Source: Opitutia bacterium UBA977 (GTDB lineage Bacteria; Verrucomicrobiota; Verrucomicrobiia; Opitutales; Coraliomargaritaceae). Taken from it: 57,803 bases of DNA. Below are positions 17,766 through 34,478 of this stretch, in pieces. How positions within the stretch are numbered: position 1 is the first letter of the stretch; each line of letters begins with the position of its first letter. The notes beneath the pieces are model-generated. The model saw nothing but the letters and a program-made list of their open reading frames with translations. It was not told where the DNA came from and did not search any database. The DNA is taken from NCBI GenBank assembly GCA_002292345.1, contig DBBT01000048.1, forward strand, positions 1-57,803. The letters are read 5' to 3'. The position numbers were made by a program, and so were the translations under genes.

Positions 17766-17780
17766 GTTCAACAGTTTAAC
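17766..17780. promoter_or_regulatory. Putative LacI-family operator, giant amylase promoter
   Basis: GTTCAACAGTTTAAC is a near-palindrome around a central A (arms GTTCAAC and GTTAAAC). It lies 92 bp upstream of the start codon of the minus-strand giant amylase gene, in the 275-bp space it shares with the divergent LacI-family gene. Confidence 0.65.
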
Positions 17781-17887
17781 CGCGCGGAGGGCTGACTGTC
17801 GAGTGAGTCCGTGCATTGGAGCGATCATATCTGTCAATTGGAGTGATTAGAGCATAAAATAGTCCCATTTATGTCCTTTATACGCAC

Positions 17888-17902
17888 ATTCAACTGTCGA
17901 CT
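17888..17902. promoter_or_regulatory. Putative LacI-family operator, upstream of regulator gene
   Basis: ATTCAACTGTCGACT shares the TTCAACTGT core and a mirrored GTCGA half. It ends 47 bp before the regulator start codon, which suggests autoregulation. Confidence 0.6.
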
Positions 17903-17933
17903 AGTCTGAGTCGTTACACTTTTCTAAAAGTCG

Positions 17934-17948
17934 GTTCAACTGTCCAAT
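17934..17948. promoter_or_regulatory. Putative LacI-family operator abutting the regulator start codon
   Basis: GTTCAACTGTCCAAT ends one base before the regulator ATG at 17950. Its core TTCAACTGTC is shared with the sites at 23455 and 34464. Binding here would block the start of the regulator message. The right half is degenerate. Confidence 0.55.
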
Positions 17949-17949
17949 T

Positions 17950-18996
17950 ATGCCTAAGTCCCCTGAACGACGCCCCAATATGCAACAGATCGCGGATGCT
18001 GCGGGTGTGAGTAAATCGGCTGTTTCCTTAGCTCTGCGCAACGATCCACGGATTCCGGAGGCAACCCGTGTGCGGATTCAACGGTTCGCCGATGAGATGG
18101 GCTACCGGCGCAATCCGGTGGTGGATTCGCTAATGACGCAATTGCGCGCCGGACGCCAACCGACTTTTCAGGCCAACCTTGCGTTGATCAATTGTTCGCC
18201 GCTCAAGGATCTCAGCCAGAACCACACGTTTAAACGCCTTCGTGAGGGCATCCTGCAGCGTGGTGAACAACTCGGCTATGGCATCGAGGAGTTTTGGTTA
18301 CAGCAACCTGACATGCGGCCAGAGCGGTTAAAACAGATCGTCGAAACGCGCGGCATTCGTGGGCTCATTTTAATTGCAGCGCTAGATTTGGATGCGATCC
18401 ATGGCAGCTATTCTAAGTTTTGGTATGACTTTGCCTGTTCGGTCATCGGCGTGACGCATTTAAATAACCAATTGAATTGTTCGTCGAATGACCAATATTT
18501 GACCGCTCGCCAAGCGACTCAGAAAGTGCTGGAGATGGGCTATAAACGTCCACTGTTGGTTTTGCCTGCAAAAGATGATGCGCTACTGGATGAAAAGTTC
18601 AGTGCTGGCTTTTTCAGTGTATCCCGGCATCTGCCACAGATGGACAAATTGGATATGCTCGCTTTGGACACTGAGGATATTGCTACGGCAGTGGCGGAAA
18701 TTCGCAAGCAGCAGCCCGATGTGGTGCTGACTAACAAGCTGGAACTCTATGACGCGCTGGTCGAAGATGGTCTGAAGATCCCGAAAGAACTAGCACTGGT
18801 GCACTTAGATTGGCACGTCGGCATCCCGCACTTAGCCGGCATGCGTCAGAATAATCGTGAAGTCGGCAGCGCCGGCGTCGATTTGGTGGTCGGCCAATTG
18901 CAGAAGAATGAATTCGGCGCACAGGAGCATCCTAAGGTTGTGCAGATCGAAAGCATCTGGGTCGATGGGCCGAGTTTGAGGAGCTTTCCGGATTAA
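17950..18996 (+). CDS. LacI/GalR-family transcriptional regulator of the glucan locus
   Basis: The 348-residue protein begins with a LacI-type helix-turn-helix, 'MQQIADAAGVSKSAVSLAL' (residues 11-29), and the hinge helix region 'RVRIQRFADEMGYRRNP'. A periplasmic-binding-protein-like effector domain follows. It would bind palindromic operators and release or tighten on binding a sugar, probably a malto-oligosaccharide judging by the neighbours. Two operator-like copies lie in its own upstream region, and others precede the amylase, PEP-CTERM, lipoprotein and malQ units. It is divergent from the giant amylase gene and its stop overlaps the stop of the convergent downstream gene. Whether it represses or activates cannot be read from sequence. 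Confidence 0.94.
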   Translation: MPKSPERRPNMQQIADAAGVSKSAVSLALRNDPRIPEATRVRIQRFADEMGYRRNPVVDSLMTQLRAGRQPTFQANLALINCSPLKDLSQNHTFKRLREGILQRGEQLGYGIEEFWLQQPDMRPERLKQIVETRGIRGLILIAALDLDAIHGSYSKFWYDFACSVIGVTHLNNQLNCSSNDQYLTARQATQKVLEMGYKRPLLVLPAKDDALLDEKFSAGFFSVSRHLPQMDKLDMLALDTEDIATAVAEIRKQQPDVVLTNKLELYDALVEDGLKIPKELALVHLDWHVGIPHLAGMRQNNREVGSAGVDLVVGQLQKNEFGAQEHPKVVQIESIWVDGPSLRSFPD

Positions 18997-19730
18997 GGAC
19001 GGCTGTCTTGTGCTTCTTGTATTTTAAACAAAAAATTTGGTATGCCGCTATTGTAGGTCACGGTGGTGACTCGAATGTGTGATATATCAGCAGTTTCCTC
19101 GTCGATAAATTGGAGTTCCTGTGGCGCTTCAATTTGATTCGAGAACTTGCTGAAGCTATTAATTTGAAAACTGCGTAAAAGCACTTCTTTTGTTTCTGTG
19201 TTAGCTAACCGATAGAGATTAGCACCAATGATGCGTCTTTTTCCTTGCACATCCGAGGTCACTTTCGATGTTTTATCGATTTCATAAGTGAATTCGATGC
19301 GGTAATCATTAAATATTTTATGCGATAATGGAAAGCCATCGACAGCTCTAAAGTGATACTCGGGGTTGAGCATGAGTAAGTCGAACAGTTGAGAGGCGGC
19401 TTCATCAGCTTGCTTTGTTTCAACCTTCAACTGCCCATCAGTATCCAAGATGCTCACGACTGAGCCTTGGTTGAATAACAACGTAAAGGTATTACGACCA
19501 TTACTATTGTTTACACTGAATCGGATCATGGACTGCCCTTTTTTCACTATAAAAAGTTGCCGCTCACCTTCGTCGGTGATTAACAAGGCGTTTATCCGTA
19601 TTGATTGCACGCCTGCGTGTGACTGTAAAATTTTCTCTCTAAGCCCTGCTTGAGCATAACCCTGTATGGGGAGGCTGACCTGTAGCCAAGCCATAGTTCC
19701 AACAAGTAAACTTAGTGAGAGATGCTTCAT
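18993..19730 (-). CDS. Secreted protein, possibly LolA/LolB-like fold
   Basis: The 245-residue protein has a signal peptide ('HLSLSLLVGTMAWLQVSLPIQGYAQA'). It is predicted to be periplasmic, with alternating beta strands ('SIRINALLITDEGERQLFIVKKG'; 'YRIEFTYEIDK'; 'RRIIGANLYRL') and few cysteines. This pattern recalls outer-membrane lipoprotein-sorting folds, but I see no diagnostic motif and the call is tentative. Its stop overlaps the stop of the LacI-family gene. It starts about 75 bp downstream of the first PEP-CTERM gene on the same strand, with a strong terminator between them, so it may be transcribed separately or at a low level by read-through. Confidence 0.8.
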   Translation of the reverse strand: MKHLSLSLLVGTMAWLQVSLPIQGYAQAGLREKILQSHAGVQSIRINALLITDEGERQLFIVKKGQSMIRFSVNNSNGRNTFTLLFNQGSVVSILDTDGQLKVETKQADEAASQLFDLLMLNPEYHFRAVDGFPLSHKIFNDYRIEFTYEIDKTSKVTSDVQGKRRIIGANLYRLANTETKEVLLRSFQINSFSKFSNQIEAPQELQFIDEETADISHIRVTTVTYNSGIPNFLFKIQEAQDSRP

Positions 19731-19756
19731 TTGGTAAATTTAATACTAGGCACAAA

Positions 19757-19786
19757 AAAACCGTTGATTCATGTATCAACGGTTTT
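19757..19786 (-). terminator. Intrinsic terminator of the first PEP-CTERM gene
   Basis: A perfect 12-bp stem (19757-19768 with 19775-19786) surrounds a 6-nt loop. In the minus direction it ends in a run of Ts (complement of the A run 19754-19760). It lies 20 bp past the stop of the 19806-20444 gene. The reverse direction has only four Ts. Confidence 0.85.
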
Positions 19787-19805
19787 GTGGTTTTGAAAAT
19801 GTGTA

Positions 19806-20444
19806 TTAACTGCGCCGGCGCACTGCGATGTAGCTAAGACTGAGTAGTCCTGCGATTAGAGCATAAGTGCCTGGTTCTGGGACGGGGGTGACAGAGAACG
19901 TTCCAGTGTAGTTGTTTCCGCCATCGTTGATGAAATGAGGGCCATCAGAATCTGTGGTAGCTGACCAAAATACTTCGACGCTGTAGTCTCCAGCAATCAG
20001 TCCGTTAGCGATATTGATCACGCCATCAGTTAGGCCAGTCCAACGCTGATCGCCGCTGTTCGTGTATTCGAAACCTGCAAGGCTAGTGAATGTAGCATCG
20101 GCGCCAAAGCTGATTCCAGTAGTCGTGAAATCACTCGGCGTGCCAGTGGTCGTCTCGTAGATGCGATAGTTGAGTTGGGCTCCGTTTACATTACTTCCTC
20201 CGTTCTTGTAGGTGAGAACTTCAGCGGTGCTGAAGCTTATATTGCCCCCAACGTTGACTGAGCCGAGAGCAGCGCCTTCAAAGTCGGTTAGATCGGTGCC
20301 TGCTTGATAGGCCTCATAGATGGTCGCGGAGCCACCATCGACGGATACTCCGACGTATGCTCCAAACGCTCCGGATGCCGCGCTCAAGCTAGAAGCTGAT
20401 GTTAGCAGTAATGCGGTTGAGATTAATAGTGCTATTTTTTTCAT
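19806..20444 (-). CDS. PEP-CTERM sorting-domain secreted protein
   Basis: The 212-residue protein has a signal peptide ('MKKIALLISTALLLTSASS'), a beta-rich Gly/Thr/Asp body and a C-terminal PEP-CTERM tail: 'VPEPGTYALIAG', a hydrophobic helix and 'RRRS'. Proteins with this tail are cut and sorted by an exosortase; none is encoded in this window. The body shows no recognisable enzyme motif. An operator-like palindrome lies 86 bp upstream of the start, which places it in the putative glucan regulon. A role in surface binding of substrate or in the envelope matrix is only a guess. Confidence 0.9.
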   Translation of the reverse strand: MKKIALLISTALLLTSASSLSAASGAFGAYVGVSVDGGSATIYEAYQAGTDLTDFEGAALGSVNVGGNISFSTAEVLTYKNGGSNVNGAQLNYRIYETTTGTPSDFTTTGISFGADATFTSLAGFEYTNSGDQRWTGLTDGVINIANGLIAGDYSVEVFWSATTDSDGPHFINDGGNNYTGTFSVTPVPEPGTYALIAGLLSLSYIAVRRRS

Positions 20445-20529
20445 AAGTACATTTGTGTATGATTTGAGTGGGGTTTTAAATTGATAACTAAATATTCACA
20501 GATCCTTCATTTTTTTGAAAGCTTTTTGC

Positions 20530-20544
20530 ATTCAACAGTTTAAC
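20530..20544. promoter_or_regulatory. Putative LacI-family operator, first PEP-CTERM gene
   Basis: ATTCAACAGTTTAAC is identical in 14 of 15 positions to the site upstream of the giant amylase gene. It lies 86 bp upstream of the minus-strand start at 20444. Confidence 0.65.
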
Positions 20545-20693: not shown

Positions 20694-20708
20694 ATTCAAC
20701 AGTTTAGT
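20694..20708. promoter_or_regulatory. Additional putative LacI-family operator
   Basis: ATTCAACAGTTTAGT keeps the core TTCAACAGTTTA. It is 250 bp upstream of the first PEP-CTERM gene and 314 bp upstream of the second, so it may be an auxiliary (looping) site. It sits at the left edge of a palindromic-repeat block. Confidence 0.5.
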
Positions 20709-20930: not shown

Positions 20931-20933
20931 GCG

Positions 20934-20948
20934 AATCAACTGTTGACT
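20934..20948. promoter_or_regulatory. Putative LacI-family operator, second PEP-CTERM gene
   Basis: AATCAACTGTTGACT contains the perfect 11-bp palindrome TCAACTGTTGA (20936-20946), the best copy of the motif in the window. It lies 88 bp upstream of the start codon at 21022. Confidence 0.68.
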
Positions 20949-21021: not shown

Positions 21022-21825
21022 ATGAAAAGAACACTTCTGATTGCCTCAATGTCCGTGCTGGTGAGCAGCGCGTTTGCTTTAACTGCTTTCGATGACGCGT
21101 CTGATGCTGCATACAGCGATGGCTGGACTGGAAATGGCACCGAAGGTTTTGACAATGGTGGAACAGGGTTTGCAGGATGGGGTTTCACTTCGACTGCAAA
21201 CACTACATCTGAAATATCCAGTTCGACAGCTGTGGGTTCTCCGGGGGGAGACATTAACTCGTCCGGAACTGATGCTTTCCGTATCGCGGCAAATAATGGC
21301 GAATCATTTGATGTGTTTCGTACCTTTTCCTCTTCGTTGGGCGCAGGGGATGTGTTTACTTTCGACCTTGCAGCGAATTTTCGCAATGGTTCGAAAGGGG
21401 TCGATATCCGAAGCGATAATACTGCGGTTTTTAATTTTAGTATTGCGGATGATAGCTACTTTTTCGGACAGCCGGGCTCGGGTATTAATTTAGGTGATGG
21501 CGCAGGACAGGACTGGGGTTACGTGAGTGACGGTGTCTACAGTCTTGAGTTTGAGTTTGTGACGGAGACGTTCATGACTGCTAGAATTCAACGCACATCT
21601 TCTGCGACTCCATCTCAAAATCGTAGCTTTGAACTCGCAAACATCACATTGTCTGGAGCGGTTGATAACTTTAAGTTCTACGTTTCAGGTACTGAAAGCG
21701 ATATTCCTGCGAATAGTTTATACGTGAACAATCTACAAGTCTCTGAAGTCCCCGAACCCGGCACTTATGCGTTGATCGCCGGCACCTTGGCTTTGCTTTG
21801 CGTGGCGATGCGTCGTCGGGGATAG
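21022..21825 (+). CDS. PEP-CTERM secreted protein of the 'DGW...GGxGFxxW' family
   Basis: Starting at the ATG 21022 the protein has 267 residues with the signal peptide 'MKRTLLIASMSVLVSSAFA'. An in-frame extension to 20953 is possible but would bury that signal. The body begins 'DDASDAAYSDGW' and 'GGTGFAGWGF' and continues as a jelly-roll-like beta domain. The C-terminus is a PEP-CTERM tail ('VPEPGTYALIAG', helix, 'MRRRG'). The body resembles the secreted protein at 34531-35382 in motif order, although that one lacks the tail. It is probably exported and sorted by an exosortase. A perfect operator palindrome lies 88 bp upstream. Glucan binding is a guess from the context. Confidence 0.9.
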   Translation: MKRTLLIASMSVLVSSAFALTAFDDASDAAYSDGWTGNGTEGFDNGGTGFAGWGFTSTANTTSEISSSTAVGSPGGDINSSGTDAFRIAANNGESFDVFRTFSSSLGAGDVFTFDLAANFRNGSKGVDIRSDNTAVFNFSIADDSYFFGQPGSGINLGDGAGQDWGYVSDGVYSLEFEFVTETFMTARIQRTSSATPSQNRSFELANITLSGAVDNFKFYVSGTESDIPANSLYVNNLQVSEVPEPGTYALIAGTLALLCVAMRRRG

Positions 21826-22262: not shown

Positions 22263-23402
22263 TCAATAAAACCCGAACACTGGGCCGTCCATACGTTTTT
22301 CATAGCCATCTTGAGAGATCGTCTGGCGCTCGGATTGTGAGAAGTCTTTGAGCTTAAACACGGGCAGGATGGGGCGGCCGTCGCCGGCTTTATCGTAGCT
22401 CACGCCTTTCTCTTCGATGAATAGGTAGCAACCGAATTCGCCGCCGGGGATTTCGCCGATCACGACGCTCAGATCCGTGGCCTCGCCGGGAGTGAGTTTG
22501 AACCAATCGCCCGCGGTGAGCTTGGGTAAATACTCCGATACGGGCGGCGCATTGTGGGTCGGCTCATCGTCTGGTGTCCACTTGCCAGGATTCGATTCGG
22601 TGAAGCCAGCGGAGAGCACGGTGCGTCCTTTGACTCCGACGATCAAAATGTCGTCGGCCGTGCCTACAAATCGAAAGGTGCCGCCTTTGGTAGAGCGGAA
22701 TTTCCCCTGATAGACGGCAATCCATTGACTCGGCTGCACCAGATTTTCGACGCCATAGGCGCGCGGCGCTTCGTCGGCACTCATCAGTGGTATATAGAAG
22801 TGTGTGGCGTAGAGCTTCTGCGGGGCGCTGAAGAATTTTCGAAATTCAGTGAGCCGATAGTTGCGCATGAAATCTTTACCCGCATCCATCCAGCCTTGTT
22901 TGGGTGGGTTTTCGCGGTAGCGGTCTTGCTTGAAGTCAATGAAGGTGCCTTCGAGTGCGCCGGCGAGTGGAGAGGTATTACCAAACAGTGTGGCGAAGCC
23001 AGATTCGCCGCCGCCGCCGCCCAGTCCGCCGCCGAGGTCGCCGGCACTGCCGCGTGCTTTGATCGCGCTCTTGTTGATGCTGGGCTTGGGCACGTCAACT
23101 TTAGGTAGGTTAATTTCGGAGGGGAGATCGACCGCGATTGGTATTTGAGTGGAGATTGCAGTGCTGCGCTGTGAGCGCATCGTCTTTAATTTATACTCAC
23201 GCTGCTTGGGTTGGATTGCTTCTGGCGGAATTACGACTTCGATTTCTGCTTCGTCCTCTGTGAGGATAATAAACATTTTCCAGCTACCGATCCCCAAGCC
23301 CACCAGCAAGTGTAGTGCTAAGCTGGCAACTAGGATCAGTAATAGCGGGCGCTTGAGTAAGCGTTGTATGACGGTAGGTGAGGTTTGTGGGGATTCGATC
23401 AT
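22263..23402 (-). CDS. TonB-like periplasmic-spanning protein with non-TonB C-terminal domain
   Basis: From the ATG at 23402 (the in-frame TTG at 23417 is less likely) the protein has 379 residues. A short basic cytoplasmic N-terminus precedes one membrane helix, 'LLLILVASLALHLLVGLGIG' (about 21-40). Then comes a Pro/charged linker ('VVIPPEAIQPKQREYKLK'; 'VDVPKPSINK'), a Gly-rich hinge ('GGGLGGGGG') and a C-terminal beta domain of about 230 residues with 'GTFRFVGTADDILIVGV', reminiscent of PA14 folds. N-terminally it looks like TonB/energy-transducer proteins that contact ExbB, but no TonB C-terminal YP motif is seen. It is divergent from the lipoprotein-TPR-ExbBDD operon. Confidence 0.85.
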   Translation of the reverse strand: MIESPQTSPTVIQRLLKRPLLLILVASLALHLLVGLGIGSWKMFIILTEDEAEIEVVIPPEAIQPKQREYKLKTMRSQRSTAISTQIPIAVDLPSEINLPKVDVPKPSINKSAIKARGSAGDLGGGLGGGGGESGFATLFGNTSPLAGALEGTFIDFKQDRYRENPPKQGWMDAGKDFMRNYRLTEFRKFFSAPQKLYATHFYIPLMSADEAPRAYGVENLVQPSQWIAVYQGKFRSTKGGTFRFVGTADDILIVGVKGRTVLSAGFTESNPGKWTPDDEPTHNAPPVSEYLPKLTAGDWFKLTPGEATDLSVVIGEIPGGEFGCYLFIEEKGVSYDKAGDGRPILPVFKLKDFSQSERQTISQDGYEKRMDGPVFGFY

Positions 23403-23454: not shown

Positions 23455-23469
23455 GTTCAACTGTCAAAT
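23455..23469. promoter_or_regulatory. Putative LacI-family operator, lipoprotein/ExbBD operon
   Basis: GTTCAACTGTCAAAT lies in the 128-bp divergent space between the TonB-like gene and the tandem-GH13 lipoprotein gene, 76 bp upstream of the ATG at 23531. It could control both directions. Confidence 0.62.
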
Positions 23470-23530
23470 GGGGCGAGTTGTGCGCTTCGCTTCAGAATCG
23501 TTGTCTTGGAATTAACAAAGATAAGTGTTC

Positions 23531-26500
23531 ATGTCTCCCCATACAATGTTACTCCGCCTTACTTCACTTTTTTGCGCTTGCTCAGTGGCAGGTTGTCTCG
23601 ATGCCAGCGATCTTTCGCTCAAAATTCCCGTGCAGTCAGATATTGCGGAGTCGTCACTATGGGTGGCACTTGATGCAGGGCCAGGCTTCGGTTCGACCGT
23701 GGTAGAAGTTGCTGTCGAGCAGCGTGTATTTCTGGCATTTCAAGCCGATGTCATTCTAAAGATTGAAGGCAATGCGGTGCTCGAGGCGCGTCACTATCAA
23801 AACTATAAATGGCAAGCCGCTCCGGTCGATGCGTTCAAGGTGACGGCACTGGGCGATGCAATACAGCTGCAATTGAAAGCCCCGGGGCGCGAGTTTGACC
23901 GTGTGCGTGCGGTGCAGTGGTTTACGCTGAACGAGCATGTCATCGTTACTTCGGACCAGGCGCGGATTGCACGTTCGGCAGAGGATCTTTATGTGCCAGA
24001 ATATTATTCGGTGAGTCCGGCAGGCGCGTTGGAATTGAAGGGGCGCTTTGGTGCCATCGATGCCAAACCACGAATCTACCAAATGCTGCCACGGTTGTTT
24101 GGTAATGCCAACGAGACGCGCCAGGTGAATGGCACTCTGGCTGAAAATGGTGCAGGCAAGTTCAGCGCGTTGAATGAGCGTGTGCTCGCGGGATTCCGTG
24201 TGGACGGCTTTACGCACATCTGGCTGACCGGCGTGTTGCAACAAGCGACGTCGACCGATTATAGTGCCGTCGGGCAAGCGCCAGACGATCCAGATTTATT
24301 AAAAGGCATCGCAGGTAGCCCTTATGCGATTCGAGACTATTTTGATGTATCGCCAGACTTTGCGGACGAACCGGCCAAGCGCCTTGAAGAGTTTCAAGCG
24401 CTGACTGAGCGCATGCAGGCTGCTGGCTTGTCGGTGGTGATCGACTTTGTGCCAAATCACGTAGCGCGCAGCTACGAGTCGGATATTCGCCCGGATCTGG
24501 TGTTTGGTAACAAGGATCGCACCGGATTATATTTTGATCCGGACAACAACTTTTTCTATCTCACGCCTGAAGTCGCCGAGGGCAGTGGGCCGTTGCGTTT
24601 ACCGACGGTCGATCGGCACACTGGCAAGATTATCAATGAGACCGCGCGGTTGGTGGGCAATGCGGATGGCTATTTCGGCCCAGAGCGTGTGCATGGGCGC
24701 GTGACAGGCAATAACGTGGCGAGCTGGCGCCCGTCGAATGGTGACTGGTATGAAACCGTGAAATTAAATTACGGCTTCGATTTCTTGAATCGAGATCGTG
24801 CGCCGGATTATCCAAGTGCGATCAGCCCGCGTAAACGAGTGCCTGATACATGGCAGAAGATGGATGCGATTATCGCATATTGGCAAGAGCTCGGCGTGGA
24901 TGGCTTTCGCGTGGATATGGCGCATATGGTGCCACCTGAATTTTGGAAGTGGATGATCCATCGTGCGCAGACGCGTGCGCCTGACGTGTTCTTTTACGCA
25001 GAAGCATATAATGATGATCCGGCGAAAGTGCCGAGCCGAGATCCGGCGATCCGTGAGAACGATAGTGTGATGCTTACTTTGCTAGATGCCGGATTTCAAG
25101 CGGTGTATGATGATCCTGGATACGATACTTTGGAGCATTTGACTGCAGGTGAGCTCTGGGCGAATGATTTGGATGCGGTGGAGTCTGAGCTCGGCGGGTT
25201 CTTCTTCGACTGTGCGGTGCGCTATGCTGAGAACCATGACGAGATTCGTTTAGCGCATCCTGAAACATGGGGCGCGCAAGGCATGGAAGTTGGCCGTCCT
25301 GTATCGGCGACATTGTTTGGTCTCTCGCGTGGGCCTGTAATGGTCTATCATGGTCAGGAAGTCGGCGAACCAGGCCTGGGCCGCGAAGGCTTTGGTGGTG
25401 ACGATCAACGCACGAGTATTTTCGATTACTGGTCGCTGCCTGAATTGAACAAATGGTGGAACGACGGCGCGGCAGACGGTGCGGGGCTTTCGGACGCTCA
25501 ACGTGCGTTGCGCGCATGGTACGTGCGCTTGATGCATTTGCTCGGTGAACCTGCTTTTGCATCGGGTGTGTCGATTCCGCTCAATGCGGCAAATCAGGCG
25601 AATCCATATTTCGGCAAAGTGGCCGACGTGGGACCTTCAGGGCATTGGCTGCATGCCTATGTGCGCAGTGATCGACGCCAGGATTCGAGCTATTTGGTGA
25701 CGAGTAACTTTCACCCCAGCGCAACGCTGCGGCATGTGCGTGTGCGGTTGCCAGAAGCGGCTGTTGCTGCGCTCGACCTAACTGAGACGACGGACGAGTG
25801 GTTGGTGTTGAAAGATCAACTGGCACTCGACGGTCAACCCGTACGAGCGATTCGGGTGTCAGAGGCGCTGCGCGAAGGGATTTATTTGGATCAACTCGCA
25901 CCGCTTGCGTCCTATTACTGGGAGATTCAGACTGCAGATTCGCTGAGTGAGGGCATACAAGAGAGCCCCAGAGTGGATGCTGGGCAGGCATTTCTAGGTG
26001 CGCCGCCAGTCACTCGCCTGCGTGCGGGTGAGTCTGTATCGCTCGATCTGCGTCGTTTTGGAAATCCCGGTGCGACGCATCGCTTTGCGGCGACTGGCGG
26101 CGATGGAATCAGCGTTTCGATTGATCGACTTAATCATCGCTTGATTGTGTCGACAGATGTTGCCGCCTCGGGCTTGCATGCTGTGCGGCTGGGCCTAGAA
26201 CCTTTGAGCGGTCAAGGCCGCACGCTCGAAAGCAGCCTGCCGCTGGTAATCGATTCAGTGCCGATGCATACGTTTCGTTTGCAAGGCTATGAAGATGCTG
26301 CGTCGGTCGCGATGGTCGGCGAGTTGAATCAATGGAATGCATCCGCTGATCCGCTGCAACGTATCGAGGGTGGCTGGGCGCGCTCGGGTGCGTATCCAGC
26401 AGGTCGTGTGTTGTATAAATATGTGATTGATGGCCGTTGGGAGACTGATCCTGCTAACTCTGATCGTGAAGCAGACGGTCATGGCGGTTTTAATAGTGTG

Positions 26501-28297
26501 GTGACGATCGGTGGCGGCTCGGCCACGTCCGCTGCGCCCACGCTGTTTGTCAGTTCGATCGATGCCGCGACGCTGACCTTACAGTCGGACAAAGCACTGC
26601 GCACGGTGATTGCCGAGGCACTACCGAAGTCCGGTGGAGTGGTGCGCCTGCCCGCGACAATCGACGGTGCGATGGTGCGCGTCCAGTTACCTGCGGCGAT
26701 TTCAGGTGAGATGCTTCGAGTGTTGGTCGAGGATGTCGATGGCAAGGTCGGGTTGCCTGCGATCACCTATGCCGGTGAACCGAGTGAAGATATTTGGCAG
26801 GATGATATTATCTACTACGCATTTACAGATCGTTTTAATGATGGCAATCCAGTGAACAACCTGTCCGTCGATGACCCTAAAGTATTGCCAGCTGCGAACT
26901 ACCACGGCGGCGACTTTGAGGGCATTACTCAAAAAATGGAATCGGGCTATTTTGAAGACCTCGGTGTAAATGTGATTTGGCTCGCGCCTTTGAATCAAAA
27001 TCCCTCAGACGCGTGGGTTGAGTATCTGGAGCCGTTCCGCTCTTATACTGGCTATCACGGTTATTGGCCAATTGAGCGTTATGGCGTGGAGACACGTTTC
27101 GGTGGTGAATCTGCGCTTAAAGAACTCGTGAGTGAGGTGCATGGTCAAGACATGAAGGTGTTGGCTGATTTCGTGTTGAAGCATGTGCACCAAGACAGCG
27201 CGATCCGTGCCGAGCACCCAGAACTGTTTGGGCAATTAAAGTTAAGCGATGGTTCACGTAATTTACGCCGCTGGAATGATAACCCATACACTACATGGTT
27301 TGAGCCGTTTTTGCCTGCGTTCGATTTTCGAAATCCTGAGACGGTTGAGTTCCTGTTAGAAGATGCGGTGCATTGGATGGGGGCGTATAATTTGGATGGC
27401 TACCGTCTCGATGCGGTGAAACATATCCGACCTGATTTCTGGTGGCGCTTCCGCACACGCATGCGCGATCAATTTCCTGAGGCGAATCATTATTTCGTCG
27501 GTGAGACGTTTCAAAACCGTCATGTGATCTCTGATTTTGTTGGTGGTAATATGCTCGATGGTCAGTTCGACTTTCCGCTCTACGATGTGCTGGTGCCGTG
27601 CTTTGCACAGGGGCAGGGCGACTTTGTTCAACTCGAAGCGGCGCTGCGTCAGTCCGAGGAAGTGTATGGTCGCAGTGTCCGTATGTCGGCTCTGCTTGGT
27701 AATCATGATAAGCCGCGCTTCATGGCGTATGCCGATGGTGACTTGCCTGACCCGGACGAGGCTGATGAAGAAGAAGTCGGCTGGAGTCGCCAGTTAAAAG
27801 TCGATGATGTGGCGGCCTATGAGAAATTAAAGCAGGCGATGACGTTTTTGCTGACGATCGATGGTGTGCCGATGATTTATTATGGCGATGAAATAGGCAT
27901 GACTGGAGCGGGTGATCCAGATAATCGGCGTATGTTGCGTTTTGGTGATGATGTCTCGTCGGCCGAAGCAAAGGTGCGAGAGCATTTCTCAAAGTTGGCG
28001 CATGCGCGCCGCACGCATCCGTCGCTGTATCTGGGCAGTCGACGTGTTTTGGTCGCCGATGCGAATCGCTATGCGTATGTGCGAGCCTATGCAGATGATC
28101 GTGCCTTGGTGCTGTTTAACCGTTCAGACGAGTGGGTCACTTTTGAGCTCGAATTGAATCCAGAAATTACGAACGGCGAGTTGCTGGATGTGTTGAGTCA
28201 CACTCGAATTTCCGTGCGTGATGGCAGCGCCACGGTGTCTGTGAGCCCGATGTCTTCTGCAGTTTATACGAATAGTCAGGAGTCGCATGCGAACTAG
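23531..28297 (+). CDS. Surface lipoprotein with two GH13 alpha-amylase modules and a central CBM48-like domain
   Basis: Started at ATG 23531 (a GTG at 23525 and an ATG at 23546 are alternatives) the protein has 1588 residues. It begins with a lipoprotein signal ending in the lipobox VAGC (Cys22). GH13 module 1 has Asp462 ('DGFRVDMAHM'), Glu491 ('FFYAEAYND') and Asp570 ('AENHDEIRL'). A glycogen-binding CBM48/E-set-like domain spans about 910-995 ('VAMVGELNQWN', 'VLYKYVIDGRWETDP'). GH13 module 2 starts near 1087, with Asp1294 ('DGYRLDAVKHI'), Glu1325 ('FVGETF') and Asp1393 ('LGNHDK'). Both triads look intact. It is probably anchored in the outer membrane and cuts glucans before uptake, analogous to SusG. 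It overlaps the next gene by 11 bp. Confidence 0.93.
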   Translation: MSPHTMLLRLTSLFCACSVAGCLDASDLSLKIPVQSDIAESSLWVALDAGPGFGSTVVEVAVEQRVFLAFQADVILKIEGNAVLEARHYQNYKWQAAPVDAFKVTALGDAIQLQLKAPGREFDRVRAVQWFTLNEHVIVTSDQARIARSAEDLYVPEYYSVSPAGALELKGRFGAIDAKPRIYQMLPRLFGNANETRQVNGTLAENGAGKFSALNERVLAGFRVDGFTHIWLTGVLQQATSTDYSAVGQAPDDPDLLKGIAGSPYAIRDYFDVSPDFADEPAKRLEEFQALTERMQAAGLSVVIDFVPNHVARSYESDIRPDLVFGNKDRTGLYFDPDNNFFYLTPEVAEGSGPLRLPTVDRHTGKIINETARLVGNADGYFGPERVHGRVTGNNVASWRPSNGDWYETVKLNYGFDFLNRDRAPDYPSAISPRKRVPDTWQKMDAIIAYWQELGVDGFRVDMAHMVPPEFWKWMIHRAQTRAPDVFFYAEAYNDDPAKVPSRDPAIRENDSVMLTLLDAGFQAVYDDPGYDTLEHLTAGELWANDLDAVESELGGFFFDCAVRYAENHDEIRLAHPETWGAQGMEVGRPVSATLFGLSRGPVMVYHGQEVGEPGLGREGFGGDDQRTSIFDYWSLPELNKWWNDGAADGAGLSDAQRALRAWYVRLMHLLGEPAFASGVSIPLNAANQANPYFGKVADVGPSGHWLHAYVRSDRRQDSSYLVTSNFHPSATLRHVRVRLPEAAVAALDLTETTDEWLVLKDQLALDGQPVRAIRVSEALREGIYLDQLAPLASYYWEIQTADSLSEGIQESPRVDAGQAFLGAPPVTRLRAGESVSLDLRRFGNPGATHRFAATGGDGISVSIDRLNHRLIVSTDVAASGLHAVRLGLEPLSGQGRTLESSLPLVIDSVPMHTFRLQGYEDAASVAMVGELNQWNASADPLQRIEGGWARSGAYPAGRVLYKYVIDGRWETDPANSDREADGHGGFNSVVTIGGGSATSAAPTLFVSSIDAATLTLQSDKALRTVIAEALPKSGGVVRLPATIDGAMVRVQLPAAISGEMLRVLVEDVDGKVGLPAITYAGEPSEDIWQDDIIYYAFTDRFNDGNPVNNLSVDDPKVLPAANYHGGDFEGITQKMESGYFEDLGVNVIWLAPLNQNPSDAWVEYLEPFRSYTGYHGYWPIERYGVETRFGGESALKELVSEVHGQDMKVLADFVLKHVHQDSAIRAEHPELFGQLKLSDGSRNLRRWNDNPYTTWFEPFLPAFDFRNPETVEFLLEDAVHWMGAYNLDGYRLDAVKHIRPDFWWRFRTRMRDQFPEANHYFVGETFQNRHVISDFVGGNMLDGQFDFPLYDVLVPCFAQGQGDFVQLEAALRQSEEVYGRSVRMSALLGNHDKPRFMAYADGDLPDPDEADEEEVGWSRQLKVDDVAAYEKLKQAMTFLLTIDGVPMIYYGDEIGMTGAGDPDNRRMLRFGDDVSSAEAKVREHFSKLAHARRTHPSLYLGSRRVLVADANRYAYVRAYADDRALVLFNRSDEWVTFELELNPEITNGELLDVLSHTRISVRDGSATVSVSPMSSAVYTNSQESHAN

Positions 28298-31200
28298 TGG
28301 TGCATCCATTAGCGATGAGGCTGATTCCCCGAAGCTTGCTTCACTTTTTGTGGAGGGCAACGCCCCGTCGTTGCCATTGTGCAAAACAGGCGTGTGGAAA
28401 CGACAGAGCGTTGTTTTCTTGTGGTCATGTCGCCTGCGGCTCGGAACCCTCCAGGAATATGTCTCGGGGCTGGTCTCTCGGGGCATTGCTGGCTGTGTTG
28501 TTTGGCTGACGCTTTGTCTGGCCTGTTTGCCCACGTCAATGCTCCGCGCAGAGGCACAGGTGCAGGCGTTTCCGGATTTGGATTTGCCGACACTGGGGCA
28601 ACGGGCGCAGGCAGCGTTGCAAGCACACCCAGATCAAGCGATTCCGTATATGATCGAGATTCGTGGGCGCCTGTCGGGCGCTGCGAGCGCTGAGTATTTA
28701 GCCATCTATCGTGAGAATATATTTATGTTGGGCCTCGCTCACATGAAGTGGTTTCAAGCGTCTGGAGATGCGGCGCATTTAAGCGAAGCGATCCCGTATT
28801 GGGATGAGTTTGTGAAAAACTTTTTGTCGGATGAGCGGCATCTGCTGGCGATGTTCAATTGGGCGGATTGCCTCTATGGTGTCGAGCAGTGGGACGGTGC
28901 GGTCAGTCGCTATCAGGATGTGTTTGGTATTTATAATCAGCAAATCGCTGCAGATGATTTACTTGGTTTGCTCAATCGCTTGGTCGTTGCCGCTGCGGCT
29001 GCCGAGCGTGATGCGGACATTCAAGCGATCTTGCGGCAGTGCCTTGAGCCGACGTATAGTTCGGAGATTCGATTGTTCTGTTTGAATGCATTGTTTGACC
29101 GTGCACTCGTGACCAGTGATTTGAATGATCTCATGGCGCTCGTGGCGGAGATCAACGCAGACCGCGGTTTTCGTTATGATCTTGGGATTAACCTCAGACT
29201 ACTCAGTGTCGGCGATCGCTTTGAAGAGGAGGAGCAATATTTAGAGGCGGGGCTGTTATTCTCGATGGTGCTGCCAGTGGAGCAGTTGTTGTTCGTGGTC
29301 GAAGATCGATTAATTGAGCTAGAAGAGCGGCTGTTCAAACGACAGTATATCGCATCCAAGAAATCGGCGTTGGTCGTCGAGCGCGATCAGCTGCGGGAGC
29401 AACGTGCATTGCTGGCAGGGGCTCCGAAATACACTGCTAATTTACGCTGGCGACAGGCGCGTGTGCTACGCCTGATGGGGCGCACCTATGAGGCATATTT
29501 TGGGTTTCGCCGATTGATCGAGGACTATCCGCAACATGTACAGGTGGAGCAGTTCCGTTATGCAGCGATCTTGCAAGGATTGGAGTGTGGCTACAAGGCG
29601 GAGGCGGTTGAGATGGCTGAAGCGTATTTGGACGAACCTGCTTTTGTCCTGTTTGAAAAACCGATCGCGGTACAGCTAGCACGATTATATAAGCAGGGTG
29701 GTGAGGTCGATAAGCTATATGTCTTAGCCGATGAGTTCTTACACCGTTTTCCATTTGATCCTGTGTCGGCGCAGATGACGCATTCGCTCGGGCATGCTTG
29801 GTTTGTTAAAGGCGATACCGAGGCGATTTTAGAGGACTTCCCGATTTGGAGTGAAGAGTTTCCTGACGGAGCGTTTATCGACAGTGTGAAGTATTGGTCC
29901 GGCATGGCTTATTTGTTTGTGGGCGATTTTGAGCAGGCGCTACGTGCGTTTAAGGCGTTGATTGAAGCGCATGCCGGTAGTGTGTATTTTCAAGAGGCAC
30001 GATTTCGTTGTGGCGTCGCTTATTTCGGCAAAGGAGATTACGCGCAGGCACGAGCCATTTTCGAGGAATGGGTGGCAGTCGCTGGGAATCATCCGTTACA
30101 AGCCGAAGCGCATGTCTTCTTGGGCGATCTGGATGCCATGGAGGCGGCGGTGGAGGCTGCGCTGCAGAACTACGAGTTGGTCGAGACATATCAAGGGGCG
30201 CAGTCATTAATTGATCATGCATATTTTGAGTCTGCAGCACTGCTGCTAGCGAATCGACGCTTTGCGAATCATGATCTGTGCCTGCAGCGCTACTTAGATC
30301 GTTTTCCCGATTCACCTGCGGGTGCAGAAGCTGTGATGCGCATGGCGGATGCTAATTTAGAGCGGGGTGCAGTCGCTGCGGCATTTGATTTTTACCGTGA
30401 TGGGATCAGCCGATTTGGTAATAAAATCGATTCAGACCATGTGGATTTATTGATTGATGCGTGGTGGCGATCCGATGCAGCCATTCGCGAAGGTTTTGAA
30501 GCAACGAATCAGTTTATCAGACAGTTGCTCGCAGATGAAGATTTCCGTAGTGAGATGCTTAATAACCGCGTGGCACAGATCGGTTATTTCCAAGAGAATT
30601 CATCTATACCAGTGCCGCTGCAGGAGTCGTTGACGATTCGTCAGCCGCTCTACGATGCATTGAAAGATGTTACAGATGCCTCGGTCGAAGGCAGTGGTCG
30701 CTCACTGGAGATCAACGATTATCCTGAGCTTGCTGATTGGATGCGTCAGTCGCGCAATCAACTGGATCAATTGCCTGACGAGTTGCCCGCAGCAGTCTTT
30801 AAAGAGATGCGCAAACAAGCGGTGGCTGATGGTGCGTGGGCTTTGGCGCTACGTTTACTTCGAGTATTGAACCAGCGTGCAGATGTGGAAGTGAGTCCTG
30901 TTGAACTGGGCTTCGACGAGGTTGAGTTGGCGAGTCCGGCGACGTTGGTCTGGATCGCAGGCATCGAAGCGCAGAAAGACCCAATCGAAGCACGTGGTTT
31001 GCTGTTGCAGGCGATTGAGCGTGCACCAGCGGGACCCGCCGTGGTTGATGCATTGTTTATGCTTGCTGAATTAGAGGCAGAGGACGGCTTTTTCGATTCA
31101 GCAGCGGATTACTATGAGCGTATTTTGAATGATCACTTCGATAGTGAGCGTGCCCAGCAGTCTGCTCGAGGACGGGGTGATGCGCTGCGTCTTGCGCGTC

Positions 31201-31532
31201 GTTATGATGATGCGATTAAAGCGTATAGTTTGATCTTGAATCAACGCGATTGGCGCGGGGAAATCTGGGCGGAAGCGACTTTTAATATTGGTCGATGCTT
31301 CCTGGATCAGGAGCAACTTGGCAAGGCGCAAGGATTCTTCGAACGCACTTATTTGGCCTATAGTGGTTATCCGATTTGGGCAGGTAAGGCTGCGATGGAG
31401 AGTGCTGCGTTGCTGGAAGCCAGCGGCGATGTCGAGTCTGCCCGTCGCACTTATAAGTTCTTTGTGGATTCACCCCGAGGCTCAGAGTCGCCATTGTATG
31501 AGGTCGCCCGTCAACGTATGAAAACGCTATAA
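28287..31532 (+). CDS. Tetratricopeptide-repeat secreted protein of the ExbBD operon
   Basis: The protein is a long array of helical repeats of TPR type, such as 'LLFSMVLPVEQLLFVVEDR', 'AKGDYAQARAIFEEWV'-like units ('GKGDYAQARAIFEEW') and 'AIKAYSLILNQRDW'. The N-terminus is uncertain. The ATG at 28287 overlaps the amylase gene, and the first ~28 codons are made of a dispersed repeat. A secretion-like segment 'GCVVWLTLCLACLPTSMLRAEA' only begins about 70 residues in. The true start may be a non-ATG codon near 28400-28470. It precedes the 31538 gene by 5 bp. TPR proteins scaffold complexes, and its fixed place with ExbB/ExbD suggests a periplasmic partner of the motor. No enzymatic motif is seen. 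Confidence 0.88.
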   Translation: MRTSGASISDEADSPKLASLFVEGNAPSLPLCKTGVWKRQSVVFLWSCRLRLGTLQEYVSGLVSRGIAGCVVWLTLCLACLPTSMLRAEAQVQAFPDLDLPTLGQRAQAALQAHPDQAIPYMIEIRGRLSGAASAEYLAIYRENIFMLGLAHMKWFQASGDAAHLSEAIPYWDEFVKNFLSDERHLLAMFNWADCLYGVEQWDGAVSRYQDVFGIYNQQIAADDLLGLLNRLVVAAAAAERDADIQAILRQCLEPTYSSEIRLFCLNALFDRALVTSDLNDLMALVAEINADRGFRYDLGINLRLLSVGDRFEEEEQYLEAGLLFSMVLPVEQLLFVVEDRLIELEERLFKRQYIASKKSALVVERDQLREQRALLAGAPKYTANLRWRQARVLRLMGRTYEAYFGFRRLIEDYPQHVQVEQFRYAAILQGLECGYKAEAVEMAEAYLDEPAFVLFEKPIAVQLARLYKQGGEVDKLYVLADEFLHRFPFDPVSAQMTHSLGHAWFVKGDTEAILEDFPIWSEEFPDGAFIDSVKYWSGMAYLFVGDFEQALRAFKALIEAHAGSVYFQEARFRCGVAYFGKGDYAQARAIFEEWVAVAGNHPLQAEAHVFLGDLDAMEAAVEAALQNYELVETYQGAQSLIDHAYFESAALLLANRRFANHDLCLQRYLDRFPDSPAGAEAVMRMADANLERGAVAAAFDFYRDGISRFGNKIDSDHVDLLIDAWWRSDAAIREGFEATNQFIRQLLADEDFRSEMLNNRVAQIGYFQENSSIPVPLQESLTIRQPLYDALKDVTDASVEGSGRSLEINDYPELADWMRQSRNQLDQLPDELPAAVFKEMRKQAVADGAWALALRLLRVLNQRADVEVSPVELGFDEVELASPATLVWIAGIEAQKDPIEARGLLLQAIERAPAGPAVVDALFMLAELEAEDGFFDSAADYYERILNDHFDSERAQQSARGRGDALRLARRYDDAIKAYSLILNQRDWRGEIWAEATFNIGRCFLDQEQLGKAQGFFERTYLAYSGYPIWAGKAAMESAALLEASGDVESARRTYKFFVDSPRGSESPLYEVARQRMKTL
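28313..28373 (+). repeat. Dispersed 62-bp repeat, copy 2 (inside a coding frame)
   Basis: It matches copy 1 at 21891-21952, with CCCCGAAGCTTGCTTC, TTTTTGTGGAGGGCAACG and CCGTCGTTGC shared. It falls within the annotated 5' part of the TPR gene, just past the amylase stop, so that part of the frame may really be intergenic. Confidence 0.8.
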
Positions 31533-31537
31533 ATATC

Positions 31538-32632
31538 GTGAATACTCTTATTAACAGATTCTATTGCGCACTCGCTTCGATGCTATTAATTAGCGGCTAC
31601 CACGGGGCGCTTCACGCAGCCGAGCTTCCTGTTCGTATTCAATATCCAACTCAAGTGAACGATGTGATTTTGACTGGAATCGACGGGGACAGTGTAGTCT
31701 TTCGCCCGAAAGGTCGTGATCGAGGTGGGCGCGCTTACCTTAAACTAGATGATCTACTGCAGCAGGGAGTTGTGCTGAATTTTCTCTTTCAGCAATCCTA
31801 TTACGATGCGGTTGCCGCCTTGGATGCAGGGCAGACACGCGAGGCCTTGCCCGTTCTGAAACGTGAAGTTGCACCTTTCCTTGATTACATGTCGCTTAGT
31901 GAAATTCCGGGTAACATGCTGCCCACTGTGCTCTCGTATTTAGAGGCCTTACGTGCAGCGAAGCAGTGGACTGCGGCGACGGATGTGGCGACGCGGATAC
32001 CTGTGGCAATTGCACCGGCGCTCACGCTCGATCAGCTGCGTTCACTGAGTCTCGAATTGCTTGCCGCTGACGAAATCCCCGCTTTGTCGCGATTGCAGCG
32101 GCATTTGTTAAGTGCAAGGCATCTGTCGCAGGATCATCTTGAGGTGTATCTACGATTGGCTAATGATTGGCGCGAGGCAGGCGAGTATGTCAGAGCCTAT
32201 GAGCTTTACCGCAAGGTTCAGATACACGAAGGGCCGAATCAAATCCAAGCGCGTTTGTGGGTAGCGTATTGTAGTTTCTATCTAGGCCACGATCTGGTGC
32301 CGCAAGTATTTTTGGATGAATTGCCGGAGATGGATGTTAACACGGCAGGATATTCTTTGCGCGAATTGATTAAAGCGCGGCTGGCTATTCGCAAAGGAGC
32401 CTTCGCTGCTGCGATGCGTTCGGCCGCAGAGGGCAAAACCTATGCTGTGACAACCGATCCGTGGTATCCAGAATTGCTCTACACGGTTGCAGTTCTTTAT
32501 GGTGAGATGGCCCTGCACGAAGCTTCCATTGCCGCGCACCGCGAAGTCTCTATTCTTTTTTCAGAAACACCGTGGGCGATTCAAAGTTTAAAAGCTCTCG
32601 AAATCACAACCCCTGAAGTATCCACCTTATGA
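31538..32632 (+). CDS. Uncharacterised periplasmic helical-repeat protein
   Basis: The 364-residue protein starts at GTG 31538. It has a signal peptide ('FYCALASMLLISGYHGALHAAE'), a short beta domain ('VRIQYPTQVNDVILTGIDGDSVVFRP') and then helical repeats resembling TPR ('YVRAYELYRKVQIHEGPNQIQ'-like units). No named family is recognised. It lies between the TPR gene (5 bp gap) and exbB, whose ATG overlaps its stop by 4 bp (ATGA). This implies translational coupling and a shared job with the ExbB/ExbD motor. A periplasmic adaptor role is inferred from this position only. Confidence 0.85.
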   Translation: MNTLINRFYCALASMLLISGYHGALHAAELPVRIQYPTQVNDVILTGIDGDSVVFRPKGRDRGGRAYLKLDDLLQQGVVLNFLFQQSYYDAVAALDAGQTREALPVLKREVAPFLDYMSLSEIPGNMLPTVLSYLEALRAAKQWTAATDVATRIPVAIAPALTLDQLRSLSLELLAADEIPALSRLQRHLLSARHLSQDHLEVYLRLANDWREAGEYVRAYELYRKVQIHEGPNQIQARLWVAYCSFYLGHDLVPQVFLDELPEMDVNTAGYSLRELIKARLAIRKGAFAAAMRSAAEGKTYAVTTDPWYPELLYTVAVLYGEMALHEASIAAHREVSILFSETPWAIQSLKALEITTPEVSTL

Positions 32633-33411
32633 AACTATTAATGAATCAACTTACGAAGAATTTACGCACGCGTTCGCTTGCGAGTATTGCGTTTCTCGCC
32701 CTGGCTTCATGCCTGAGCGCGCAAACCGAAATCGTAGTCGAGGCCGCGCCTGCCGAGGAAGCGATTACACTTTGGACGATGTTCCAGCAAGGCGGCTGGG
32801 CGATGTATCCATTGCTGATGTTCTCTGTCGCACTGGTCGGGCTCGCTGCGTATTGTGGCTTACTAATTCGGGAGTCGCGTTTCACGCAACCAGAAGCTCG
32901 TGACGACCTGCGCGTAGCCATCAGTAATCGAGATGCCGACGCTGGGCTTGCGGCTTGCGCTGCGCACGAAGGTTATATGACAAGTATCTTGGAGCTAGGT
33001 TTTCAAACCGTGCAAGAGGGGCACGTCACTTCATCGGCGGTTAACGAAGCATTAGAGGAGCGCGCCAGTAAGGTGCTAGCGAAGCCTCTCGTGTTTGTGC
33101 AATACTTGCAGGTGATCGCCTCGGTCTCGCCAATGATGGGGCTGCTCGGCACAGTCAGTGGTATGGTAAAAGCCTTCCGTAACATCGCCTCGCAAGGACT
33201 CGGCAAGCCTGAGTTGTTGGCCAATAATATTTCGGAAGCCCTAGTCACCACCGCGTCGGGCCTACTGATTGCGATTCCCGCATTGATGGCTTATTTTTAT
33301 TTTAAAAACAAATACATGGCTGCGTCGTCTGGGATTTATGAACAGATCGGTTCGATGACCCGACTGATGGCCAAGCACGGCATGGTCGATGAGTCGAACA
33401 AATCTGCTTAA
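32629..33411 (+). CDS. exbB: ExbB/TolQ/MotA-family proton-channel protein
   Basis: The 260-residue protein begins with a signal-like segment ('SLASIAFLALASCLSAQ'), a short periplasmic stretch and then the ExbB core. TM1 is 'YPLLMFSVALVGLAAYCGLL', and the paired TM2/TM3 are around 'IASVSPMMGLLGTVSGMVKAF' and 'ISEALVTTASGLLIAIPALMAYFYF'. The conserved 'PMMGLLGTV' and 'ALVTTASGLLIAIPA' are diagnostic. With ExbD it forms an inner-membrane motor that uses proton motive force to energise outer-membrane transport. The extra N-terminal region is longer than in E. coli ExbB. Its start overlaps the previous stop, and exbD follows by 29 bp. Confidence 0.95.
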   Translation: MKLLMNQLTKNLRTRSLASIAFLALASCLSAQTEIVVEAAPAEEAITLWTMFQQGGWAMYPLLMFSVALVGLAAYCGLLIRESRFTQPEARDDLRVAISNRDADAGLAACAAHEGYMTSILELGFQTVQEGHVTSSAVNEALEERASKVLAKPLVFVQYLQVIASVSPMMGLLGTVSGMVKAFRNIASQGLGKPELLANNISEALVTTASGLLIAIPALMAYFYFKNKYMAASSGIYEQIGSMTRLMAKHGMVDESNKSA

Positions 33412-33440
33412 TTGATAGCGTTATACCGCAATACAAATTT

Positions 33441-33851
33441 ATGAAACCTCGCGCTATAGAAGACACCATCGACCTTCCGGATCTGACTCCGATGATCGAT
33501 ATCGTCTTTCTGCTGATTGTCTTCTTCATGACGGTCGCTAAAATGCAGGTTCAGCAAATGGTGCCGATCTCGGTACCGATTGCCGAAGCCGCGACGATTC
33601 CCGAAGATCGTGGCGCACGAATGACTGTGACCTTGAAAAACGATGGCTCCATTTTTTTTGGGCCACAGGCAGTCATACTCGAAGATATTGCTCCTTTGAT
33701 CGCTCAAGGCAACGCCACTCAATCCGGTCTCAAAGTGTATATTCGCGCCGATGCCATGGTGCCGTTTAAAGAAGTGCGTAAAGTCTTCGCGGCGGCGGCG
33801 GAGGGTGGGGTGCCCAATGTCGTATTCGCCACCTTCCAAAGCGACAAATAA
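33441..33851 (+). CDS. exbD: ExbD/TolR-family biopolymer transport protein (first copy)
   Basis: The 136-residue protein has a short N-terminus, then 'IDLPDLTPMIDIVFLLIVFFM', which contains the single membrane helix with the proton-relaying Asp of 'PMIDIVF'. A periplasmic alpha/beta domain ends 'VPNVVFATF'. Partner of ExbB in the force-generating complex. A second exbD follows after only 8 bp. The two share the TM sequence but differ in the periplasmic part, so a heteromeric rod is possible. Confidence 0.95.
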   Translation: MKPRAIEDTIDLPDLTPMIDIVFLLIVFFMTVAKMQVQQMVPISVPIAEAATIPEDRGARMTVTLKNDGSIFFGPQAVILEDIAPLIAQGNATQSGLKVYIRADAMVPFKEVRKVFAAAAEGGVPNVVFATFQSDK

Positions 33852-33859
33852 CACTCTCC

Positions 33860-34291
33860 ATGAAAGCACGCAGGCTACAGATTCCAGAAGACAACGTCGA
33901 TCTGACTCCGATGATCGATATCGTTTTCTTGCTGCTGATTTACTTCATGGTCACCACATCGATCATCAAAGAAGAGGCCGATCTGGGCGTGAAACTCCCA
34001 TCCAGTATGGCCGCGCCTCCAGGCACGCCGTTGCCGGAGCAACACTATATCGATATCCTGTTGGATGGCACCATCTTGCTAAATGGTATGCCGACCGATA
34101 ATCCAGGGAACCGCGCCTTGCCGAATCTGACGCGTACCTTGATGCAGCTCAAGCTGTCCTCCGATCGCGCTGGCCTTAAGACGCTGGTGATCCTGCAACC
34201 CGATCCAGAGACTTACCAGCAAAGTGTAGTCAACGTGCTCAACGCACTGAAGGCCGTCGGTATCAGCTCGATTTCATTTGGCGAAGGGTAG
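33860..34291 (+). CDS. exbD: ExbD/TolR-family biopolymer transport protein (second copy)
   Basis: The 143-residue protein has 'VDLTPMIDIVFLLLIYFMV' with the conserved Asp, and a periplasmic domain different from its neighbour ('LPEQHYIDILLDGTILLNG', 'LVILQPDPETYQQSVVNVL', 'GISSISFGEG'). It is last in the operon; about 240 bp without a gene follow. Two ExbD-like proteins with one ExbB suggests specialised subunits. The gene symbol reflects the family only. Confidence 0.94.
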   Translation: MKARRLQIPEDNVDLTPMIDIVFLLLIYFMVTTSIIKEEADLGVKLPSSMAAPPGTPLPEQHYIDILLDGTILLNGMPTDNPGNRALPNLTRTLMQLKLSSDRAGLKTLVILQPDPETYQQSVVNVLNALKAVGISSISFGEG

Positions 34292-34463
34292 TAGGCTAGT
34301 TAGAAGTGCCAGAGGTCCCGACTGCCATGCGTTGAAAGGTTGACTGCGTTCAGCCCAGACGATCAAACTGAAACGGCGTTTGTGACGAACACCGCCATCT
34401 TGATATTAATTTCGTATGCCTACATTATCCGCTGATCAATTATGTATTTTTGGATTTGGGCCA

Positions 34464-34478
34464 GTTCAACTGTCAAGT
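34464..34478. promoter_or_regulatory. Putative LacI-family operator, malQ unit
   Basis: GTTCAACTGTCAAGT matches the site at 23455 in 13 of 15 positions. It lies 67 bp upstream of the ATG at 34531, in the gap after the exbD genes. Confidence 0.62.

Follow-up and report, generated by a model that had tools for sequence, protein, structure and literature searches.

The alpha-glucan locus and its predicted operators

We analysed a 57,803-nucleotide stretch of DNA from Opitutia bacterium UBA977 (contig DBBT01000048.1; the window), which carries the gene of a LacI-family regulator together with genes of alpha-glucan use and, ahead of these genes, repeated copies of a short palindromic motif, the predicted operator of this regulator. 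The regulator gene (17950..18996, + strand) encodes 348 aa with an N-terminal LacI helix-turn-helix (HTH) domain (PF00356, E 2.7e-11) and a periplasmic-binding-protein-like sensor domain (PF00532, E 2.6e-6), both above the Pfam cut-offs. The whole genome has five LacI-family HTH matches. A search of solved structures with the regulator gave matches mostly to the HTH and no clue to the effector.

The exact motif TTCAACWGTY was detected eight times in the window (expected 0.44; none of 100 shuffles reached eight). Seven copies are on the + strand between 17767 and 34474, starting at 17767, 17889, 17935, 20531, 20695, 23456 and 34465, and the eighth, at 55899 on the - strand, is inside an open reading frame (ORF). 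An earlier sequence-only reading had counted eight TTCAAC(A/T)GT(T/C) sites in the locus; seven of them are exact matches, and the site at 20935, ATCAACTGTTGAC, is a near-match without the first T. It contains an 11-bp perfect odd palindrome, TCAACTGTTGA, in line with the perfect palindrome noted there before (20934). The same reading had placed six sites 62-92 bp upstream of start codons, which agrees within a few bases with the 61-93 bp measured from the site to the start codon, and had set two sites apart, of which 17935 indeed adjoins the LacI ATG and 20695 lies farther out.

The regulator gene is preceded by the operator TTCAACTGTCGAC (17889..17901, + strand; 61 bp from its first base to the start codon), and a second operator, TTCAACTGTCCAA (17935..17947, + strand), lies against the ATG, with a putative feedback role. 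To the left, the giant amylase gene (9245..17674, - strand), encoding 2809 aa, of which only residues 39-150 match GH13, has the operator TTAAACTGTTGAA, read towards the gene (17767..17779, - strand), 93 bp from its start codon at 17674; it is followed on the same strand by 6032-9244 and then by the GH13 gene 4109-5878, presumably as one operon. The first PEP-CTERM gene (19806..20444, - strand; 212 aa, 19.6 bits, slightly below the Pfam cut-off of 20.7), with a downstream gene on the same strand (18993-19730), has its operator at 20531..20543 (- strand), 87 bp from the start codon at 20444, and an outer operator at 20695..20707 (- strand). The second PEP-CTERM gene (21023..21825, + strand; PF07589, 24.6 bits) is served by the 20935..20947 operator (+ strand), 88 bp ahead of ATG 21023, which we chose as the start; TTG 20953 opens the longest ORF.

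One operator (23456..23468, + strand) is shared by two divergent genes. The leftward one (22263..23402, - strand) encodes a membrane-anchored protein with no Pfam match, labelled TonB-like from reading and context only, and the rightward one (23525..28297, + strand; GTG start 23525, 69 bp from the site) encodes a 1590-aa tandem GH13 protein (PF00128, E 6e-59, three stretches). The tandem GH13 gene is followed on the same strand (28287..34291) by genes for a TPR protein, the 31538 gene, ExbB, the 33441 gene (ExbD-like by position alone) and ExbD. The malQ unit (34531..38758, + strand), with the operator TTCAACTGTCAAG (34465..34477, + strand) 66 bp ahead of its first gene, comprises the 34531 gene (no Pfam match), GH77/malQ (35382-36965) and an MFS sugar transporter (36848-38758). 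By Pfam, the predicted targets related to alpha-glucan use are GH13, GH77 and the MFS sugar transporter.

The genome-wide motif search that the sequence-only reading had proposed revealed no even intergenic spread. The own assembly (2,431,222 bases, 139 contigs, 88.8% complete) holds 25 exact TTCAACWGTY matches, 17 of them outside the window (15 in called ORFs and two between genes), and seven of the nine intergenic matches are in the alpha-glucan locus.

Operator structure and conservation in relatives

The operator matrix was built from 67 sites hand-picked as promoter-located, 63 after removal of identical ones; genome G001 (near-identical to the own genome), coding matches and the G028 sites at 6979 and 36135 were excluded. 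In this matrix the predicted operator reads as an odd palindrome of 15 bp, R-TTCAAC-W-GTTGAA-Y, with little information beyond positions +-7 and at least one perfect half in 61 of the 63 sites. Its centre is W in 58/63, and the outermost positions are R in 61/63 and Y in 55/63; the core letters are inflated by the selection of the sites, the centre and +-7 less so, though the picking pattern partly required W.

Orthologues of the regulator (57-100% identity over at least 298 of 348 residues) were detected in 12 of the 57 genomes of the relatives search, and a family search yielded orthologues of full or almost full length in 15 of 43 genomes, the own genome being included in both counts. The 12 orthologue loci with named records are all from Verrucomicrobiota, mostly Puniceicoccaceae or Opitutales/Opitutia (11 marked as metagenome-assembled genomes), and the isolate names suggest marine or saline water as their source. 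The recognition helix is almost constant among the 11 orthologues of a 14-protein alignment.

The motif was found upstream of the regulator in 15/15 orthologue loci, in the stretch that it shares with the giant gene and amid divergent flanks, often 61-79 bp ahead of the regulator start; in G028 and G019 the single site is directed at the giant gene. A second, ATG-proximal site is present in 8 of 13 regulator loci, the G027 copy having three mismatches. Across the regions fetched from 11 genomes, 48 sites with at most two mismatches were counted in 26.8 kb of intergenic DNA versus 15 in 344.4 kb of coding DNA. The promoters with the motif across genomes are those of the giant amylase, the PEP-CTERM units, the divergent 22263/tandem-GH13 pair and the malQ unit. 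Where the tandem-GH13 gene is unlinked to the regulator contig, the site was still detected in 3/3 cases (G020, G027, G030) and in 2/2 fragmented genomes (G058, G062). Of 12 genomes with a regulon-type malQ (56-100% identity), 11 have a site in the 1.5 kb ahead of it, and malQ of the other type has a site of at most two mismatches within 300 bp in 2 of 17 readable loci (G021, G005; an eighteenth locus, L183, is without upstream DNA). In G028, G030 and G062 the site is within the longest-ORF extension of the gene, yet ahead of the conserved start.

The genes of the locus also tend to occur together. Long or strong matches to the giant amylase were found in the 12 regulator-bearing genomes of the 57, plus G053 of another family. 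The tandem GH13 (at least 62% identity) is in 11 of the 57, all of them regulator-bearing; G019 has the regulator and weak tandem-GH13 matches only. The regulator, the giant amylase, the tandem GH13 and the regulon-type malQ are for the most part found in the same genomes. The LacI glucan regulon claimed by the sequence-only reading is supported by the 15 regulator loci, the recurrence of the motif at the same targets, including those on other contigs, and this co-occurrence.

Register of the operator to a probable promoter

Each site was oriented with the served gene downstream, and positions were counted from the operator centre. The only outstanding column outside the operator was T at +19, present in 43 of 47 site-gene pairs, with 1.22 bits versus 0.30 for the best shuffled column (95% mark). 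In a larger set, T is at +19 in 48 of 53 pairs, and the operator centre is T in 48/53. The 53 pairs leave out most of the near-duplicate promoters from G001, G003 and G011, the ATG-proximal LacI sites, the outer operators (the one at 20695 and copies of it), L206 5189 (an apparent copy of L218 16518) and siteless promoters (G019 malQ). One site, G028 15665, was paired with LacI (centre A) in the 47-pair set and re-paired to the giant gene after its centre had been seen; left unmoved, it gives centre T in 47/53.

No pair of the giant, LacI, PEP1, PEP2 and 34531 classes departs from T at +19, flank identity in these classes being 31-39%. The T is present in all six own-genome pairs, including the 17889 operator read towards LacI. 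Controls gave lower counts: 5/13 for coding matches, 6/17 for own-genome matches outside the locus and 5/23 for unserved operator sides; the second intergenic match outside the locus (C96:43804), next to a gene without a Pfam match, has C at +19. The shared operators were read in both directions. Those of the tandem-GH13 class, at first sight an exception, have T at +19 in 6/10 towards the tandem GH13 and in 9/10 on the divergent 22263 side, with T on both sides in 6/10, as at the 23456 operator, and single operators between LacI and the giant gene have T at 19 on both sides in 4/5. Among the sites first tested after the +19 rule had been set, T was found in six of seven (L218 12851, 15633 and 16518, L219 946, L206 5189 and L207 174; not L206 3948).

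Next to this T, position +20 is T or G in 45/53, and weak C/A preferences follow at +21 to +23. An excess of TAnnnT starts at +40 to +43 (15/53 in a three-base window, versus 12 at the 95% mark and at most 16 in shuffles). The simplest reading is that the +19 T would belong to a weak -35/-10 promoter and that the operator would be centred near -54. The consistent spacing put forward earlier for one regulon was understated: the near-constant quantity is the distance from the operator centre to the conserved T of a probable -35 element.

Proposed regulation and alternative explanations

These sites very probably form a regulon under the 17950 LacI-family regulator, the binding being predicted. 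As a dimer, the regulator would bind R-TTCAAC-W-GTTGAA-Y and control its own gene, the giant amylase unit, the two PEP-CTERM units, the 22263 gene with the divergent tandem-GH13/TPR/ExbBD operon, and the 34531-malQ-MFS unit. The operator centre would lie ~18 bp upstream of a weak -35, with a -10-like TAnnnT at about +40 to +43. Loaded with a maltodextrin-like sugar, suggested as the effector because the targets are amylases, malQ and an MFS sugar transporter, the regulator would contact RNA polymerase and activate its targets, and the second operator at the start codon (17935) would limit the regulator's own gene, probably as negative feedback. Activation is favoured because a fixed register is needed by an activator, not by a blocking repressor, and we propose this sign of control with modest confidence. 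As a whole, the combination of regulon, register, sugar-loaded activation and own-gene limitation is a probable best explanation of the data. In its most specific form, the proposal is that a LacI-family protein dedicated to this regulon acts as an activator and that, throughout a marine verrucomicrobial family, its odd 15-bp operator keeps one distance to the promoters, near -54 and with T at 19 bp from the centre. One operator would then drive two divergent promoters by having this register on both sides, the effector-loaded regulator would switch the genes on and the start-codon operator would limit it; this form could as well fail as hold.

The same regulon and regulator may instead work as a classical LacI-type repressor, which would hinder initiation without sugar and be released by maltodextrin. 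We regard this as possible, though short of likely: blocking would not need the fixed T at +19, which shared operators mostly show on both sides, and the main operator is upstream of the inferred promoter rather than overlapping it. Repression is the commonest mode in the LacI family, including MalR of Streptococcus pneumoniae (PMC4451989), the distances from site to start are within the 30-140 bp upstream that a family survey gives as usual for LacI-type sites (PMC4052901), and the ATG-proximal second operator is compatible with blocking.

Several further results weigh against the proposed regulon, its register or its sign. The position of a site upstream of -35 is no proof of activation, since CcpA is described as repressing the lev operon via the activator LevR from such a site (PMC3463425). 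Scanned with a sigma-70 matrix, only 10 of 53 promoters had their best -35 at +18/+19 (shuffled per-position peak: median 4, 95% 5, highest 6), and for this reason the register is argued from single-base counts with controls. The malQ of G019, the sole exception of 12, has no site in the 1.5 kb upstream. The looser form TTCAACNGTYNAA, with one mismatch allowed, is not enriched genome-wide (60 matches versus 95 for the reversed control), so only the strict sites are informative. This last count would suit matches that arose by chance or from a general promoter element, with no dedicated regulator, an explanation that is hardly credible given eight exact matches against 0.44 expected, the concentration of intergenic matches in one locus and the retention of the motif over several genera amid diverged flanks.

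The remaining contrary results concern sites in genomes without the regulator. A site of the form TGTRAACTGTTGAA lies ahead of a PF00343 phosphorylase in eight same-genus genomes (8 of 30 phosphorylase loci), three of them regulator-bearing (G000, G004, G011) and five without the regulator (G005, G007, G008, G009, G010). Seven regulator-bearing genomes do not have this form at the phosphorylase (G001, G003, G019, G020, G027, G028, G036), weaker variants being present in G003 and G020. The phosphorylase sites have T at +19 in 5/8. Their presence tracks the genus, not the regulator, and they were therefore excluded from the regulon evidence; a second protein may read a similar core there, or the sites may be relics. 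In addition, G005 (99% complete, no regulator orthologue) has TTCAACTGTCGAA 108 bp upstream of its second-type malQ (L176).

The phosphorylase sites of the five genomes without an orthologue and the G005 malQ site suggest that another transcription factor might read the motif, the LacI-family gene being merely one target. This is unlikely. The motif upstream of all 15 orthologues stands against 0 of 24 readable LacI-family paralogues with a site of at most two mismatches in the 330-400 bases upstream (30 LacI-family loci, comprising these 24, two orthologues and four unreadable loci); among the paralogues, one in G008 has a three-mismatch form and one in G004 (L275) a related core, AAACTGTTAAC. 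The giant amylase of G053, which has no regulator match, has no site in the 6.5 kb covering the gene start and upstream DNA. The odd palindrome with C and G flanking its centre suits a LacI-family dimer, and the near-constant recognition helix of the orthologues also argues against a different reader.

Relation to known LacI-family systems

In the LacI family autoregulation is frequent and, according to the family survey, sites lie mostly 30-140 bp upstream of starts (PMC4052901). The placement found here agrees with this pattern (61-93 bp for six units, and a motif upstream of all 15 regulator orthologues), as does the palindrome with conserved inverted repeats. The usual LacI/GalR operator is even with a central CG, and here the centre is odd with A/T in 58/63 sites; odd palindromes are given for 4% of the 1303 regulators surveyed, where even ones with central CG predominate (PMC4052901). 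LacR, GalR and EbgR resemble the present regulator in their odd operator, the comparison being by operator form alone, and differ in that theirs are described as 17, 19 or 21 nt (PMC4052901), whereas the information here stops at 15 bp.

In its targets the regulon is similar to that of S. pneumoniae MalR, a LacI-family protein with malQ-type and amylase/pullulanase targets and several short palindromic operators (PMC4451989). The MalR operator is even with a central CG (CGCAAACGTTTKSG) and repression by it was demonstrated; relative to MalR as described there, the fixed operator-promoter register and the presence of PEP-CTERM and ExbB/ExbD genes among the partners are peculiar to the present regulon. 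CcpA as an activator (ackA, pta, ilvB) provides a likeness in family, in a site upstream of -35 and in helix-face dependence (PMC3463425). The pta cre is reported at -55, yet pta was downregulated in the same study, and CcpA differs as a global, mostly repressing regulator with HPr-Ser-P as partner, in contrast to a local regulon (PMC3463425).

LacI-family maltose regulons are already known, MalR being described in PMC4451989, and this one is set apart by an odd operator and an unusual register. What is new is the T that stands 19 bp from the operator centre on the side of the served gene. A listing-level search of the open-licence literature found no paper describing a regulon of this kind in Verrucomicrobiota. 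The analysis specifies, at base resolution, the regulator, operator and targets of a predicted alpha-glucan regulon for uncultured Puniceicoccaceae/Opitutales. The operator-promoter register is a possible route to guessing activator versus repressor sites from comparative genomics alone, and it raises the question of how a LacI-family protein could contact RNA polymerase when bound to an odd operator.

Additional observations

The giant protein is kept whole in relatives and, beyond the partial GH13 match, has no Pfam match. In many relatives the 384-aa product of 22263-23402 is likewise encoded next to the shared operator and close to ExbB/ExbD genes; it is possibly an energy-transducer variant.

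The G000 phosphorylase site GTAAACTGTTGAAC (L228, C135:44478), one of the two intergenic matches outside the locus, is located ~171 bp ahead of the open frame of a carbohydrate phosphorylase. It was considered as a blind confirmation of the regulon and rejected on account of the genus pattern of such sites.

The L275 gene of G004, a LacI-family gene with the helix SIATVS, is preceded by TTGGTAAAACTGTTAACCAA, 56 bp ahead of the HTH codons. This palindrome differs from the operator described above, shares its AACTGTT core and is perhaps the own operator of that gene.

Short fragments that match one end of the regulator at 55-59% identity, with no full copy in the same genome, were detected at L053 (G024), L055 (G034), L202 (G032) and C234 of G057, and are possibly remnants of a lost orthologue.

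The outer operator at 20695 has a leftward T at +19, with TTTAAA at +18..23 and TTATAT at +41..46, and is also present in G001 and G011; it may belong to an additional, more distant promoter of the PEP-CTERM gene 19806-20444.

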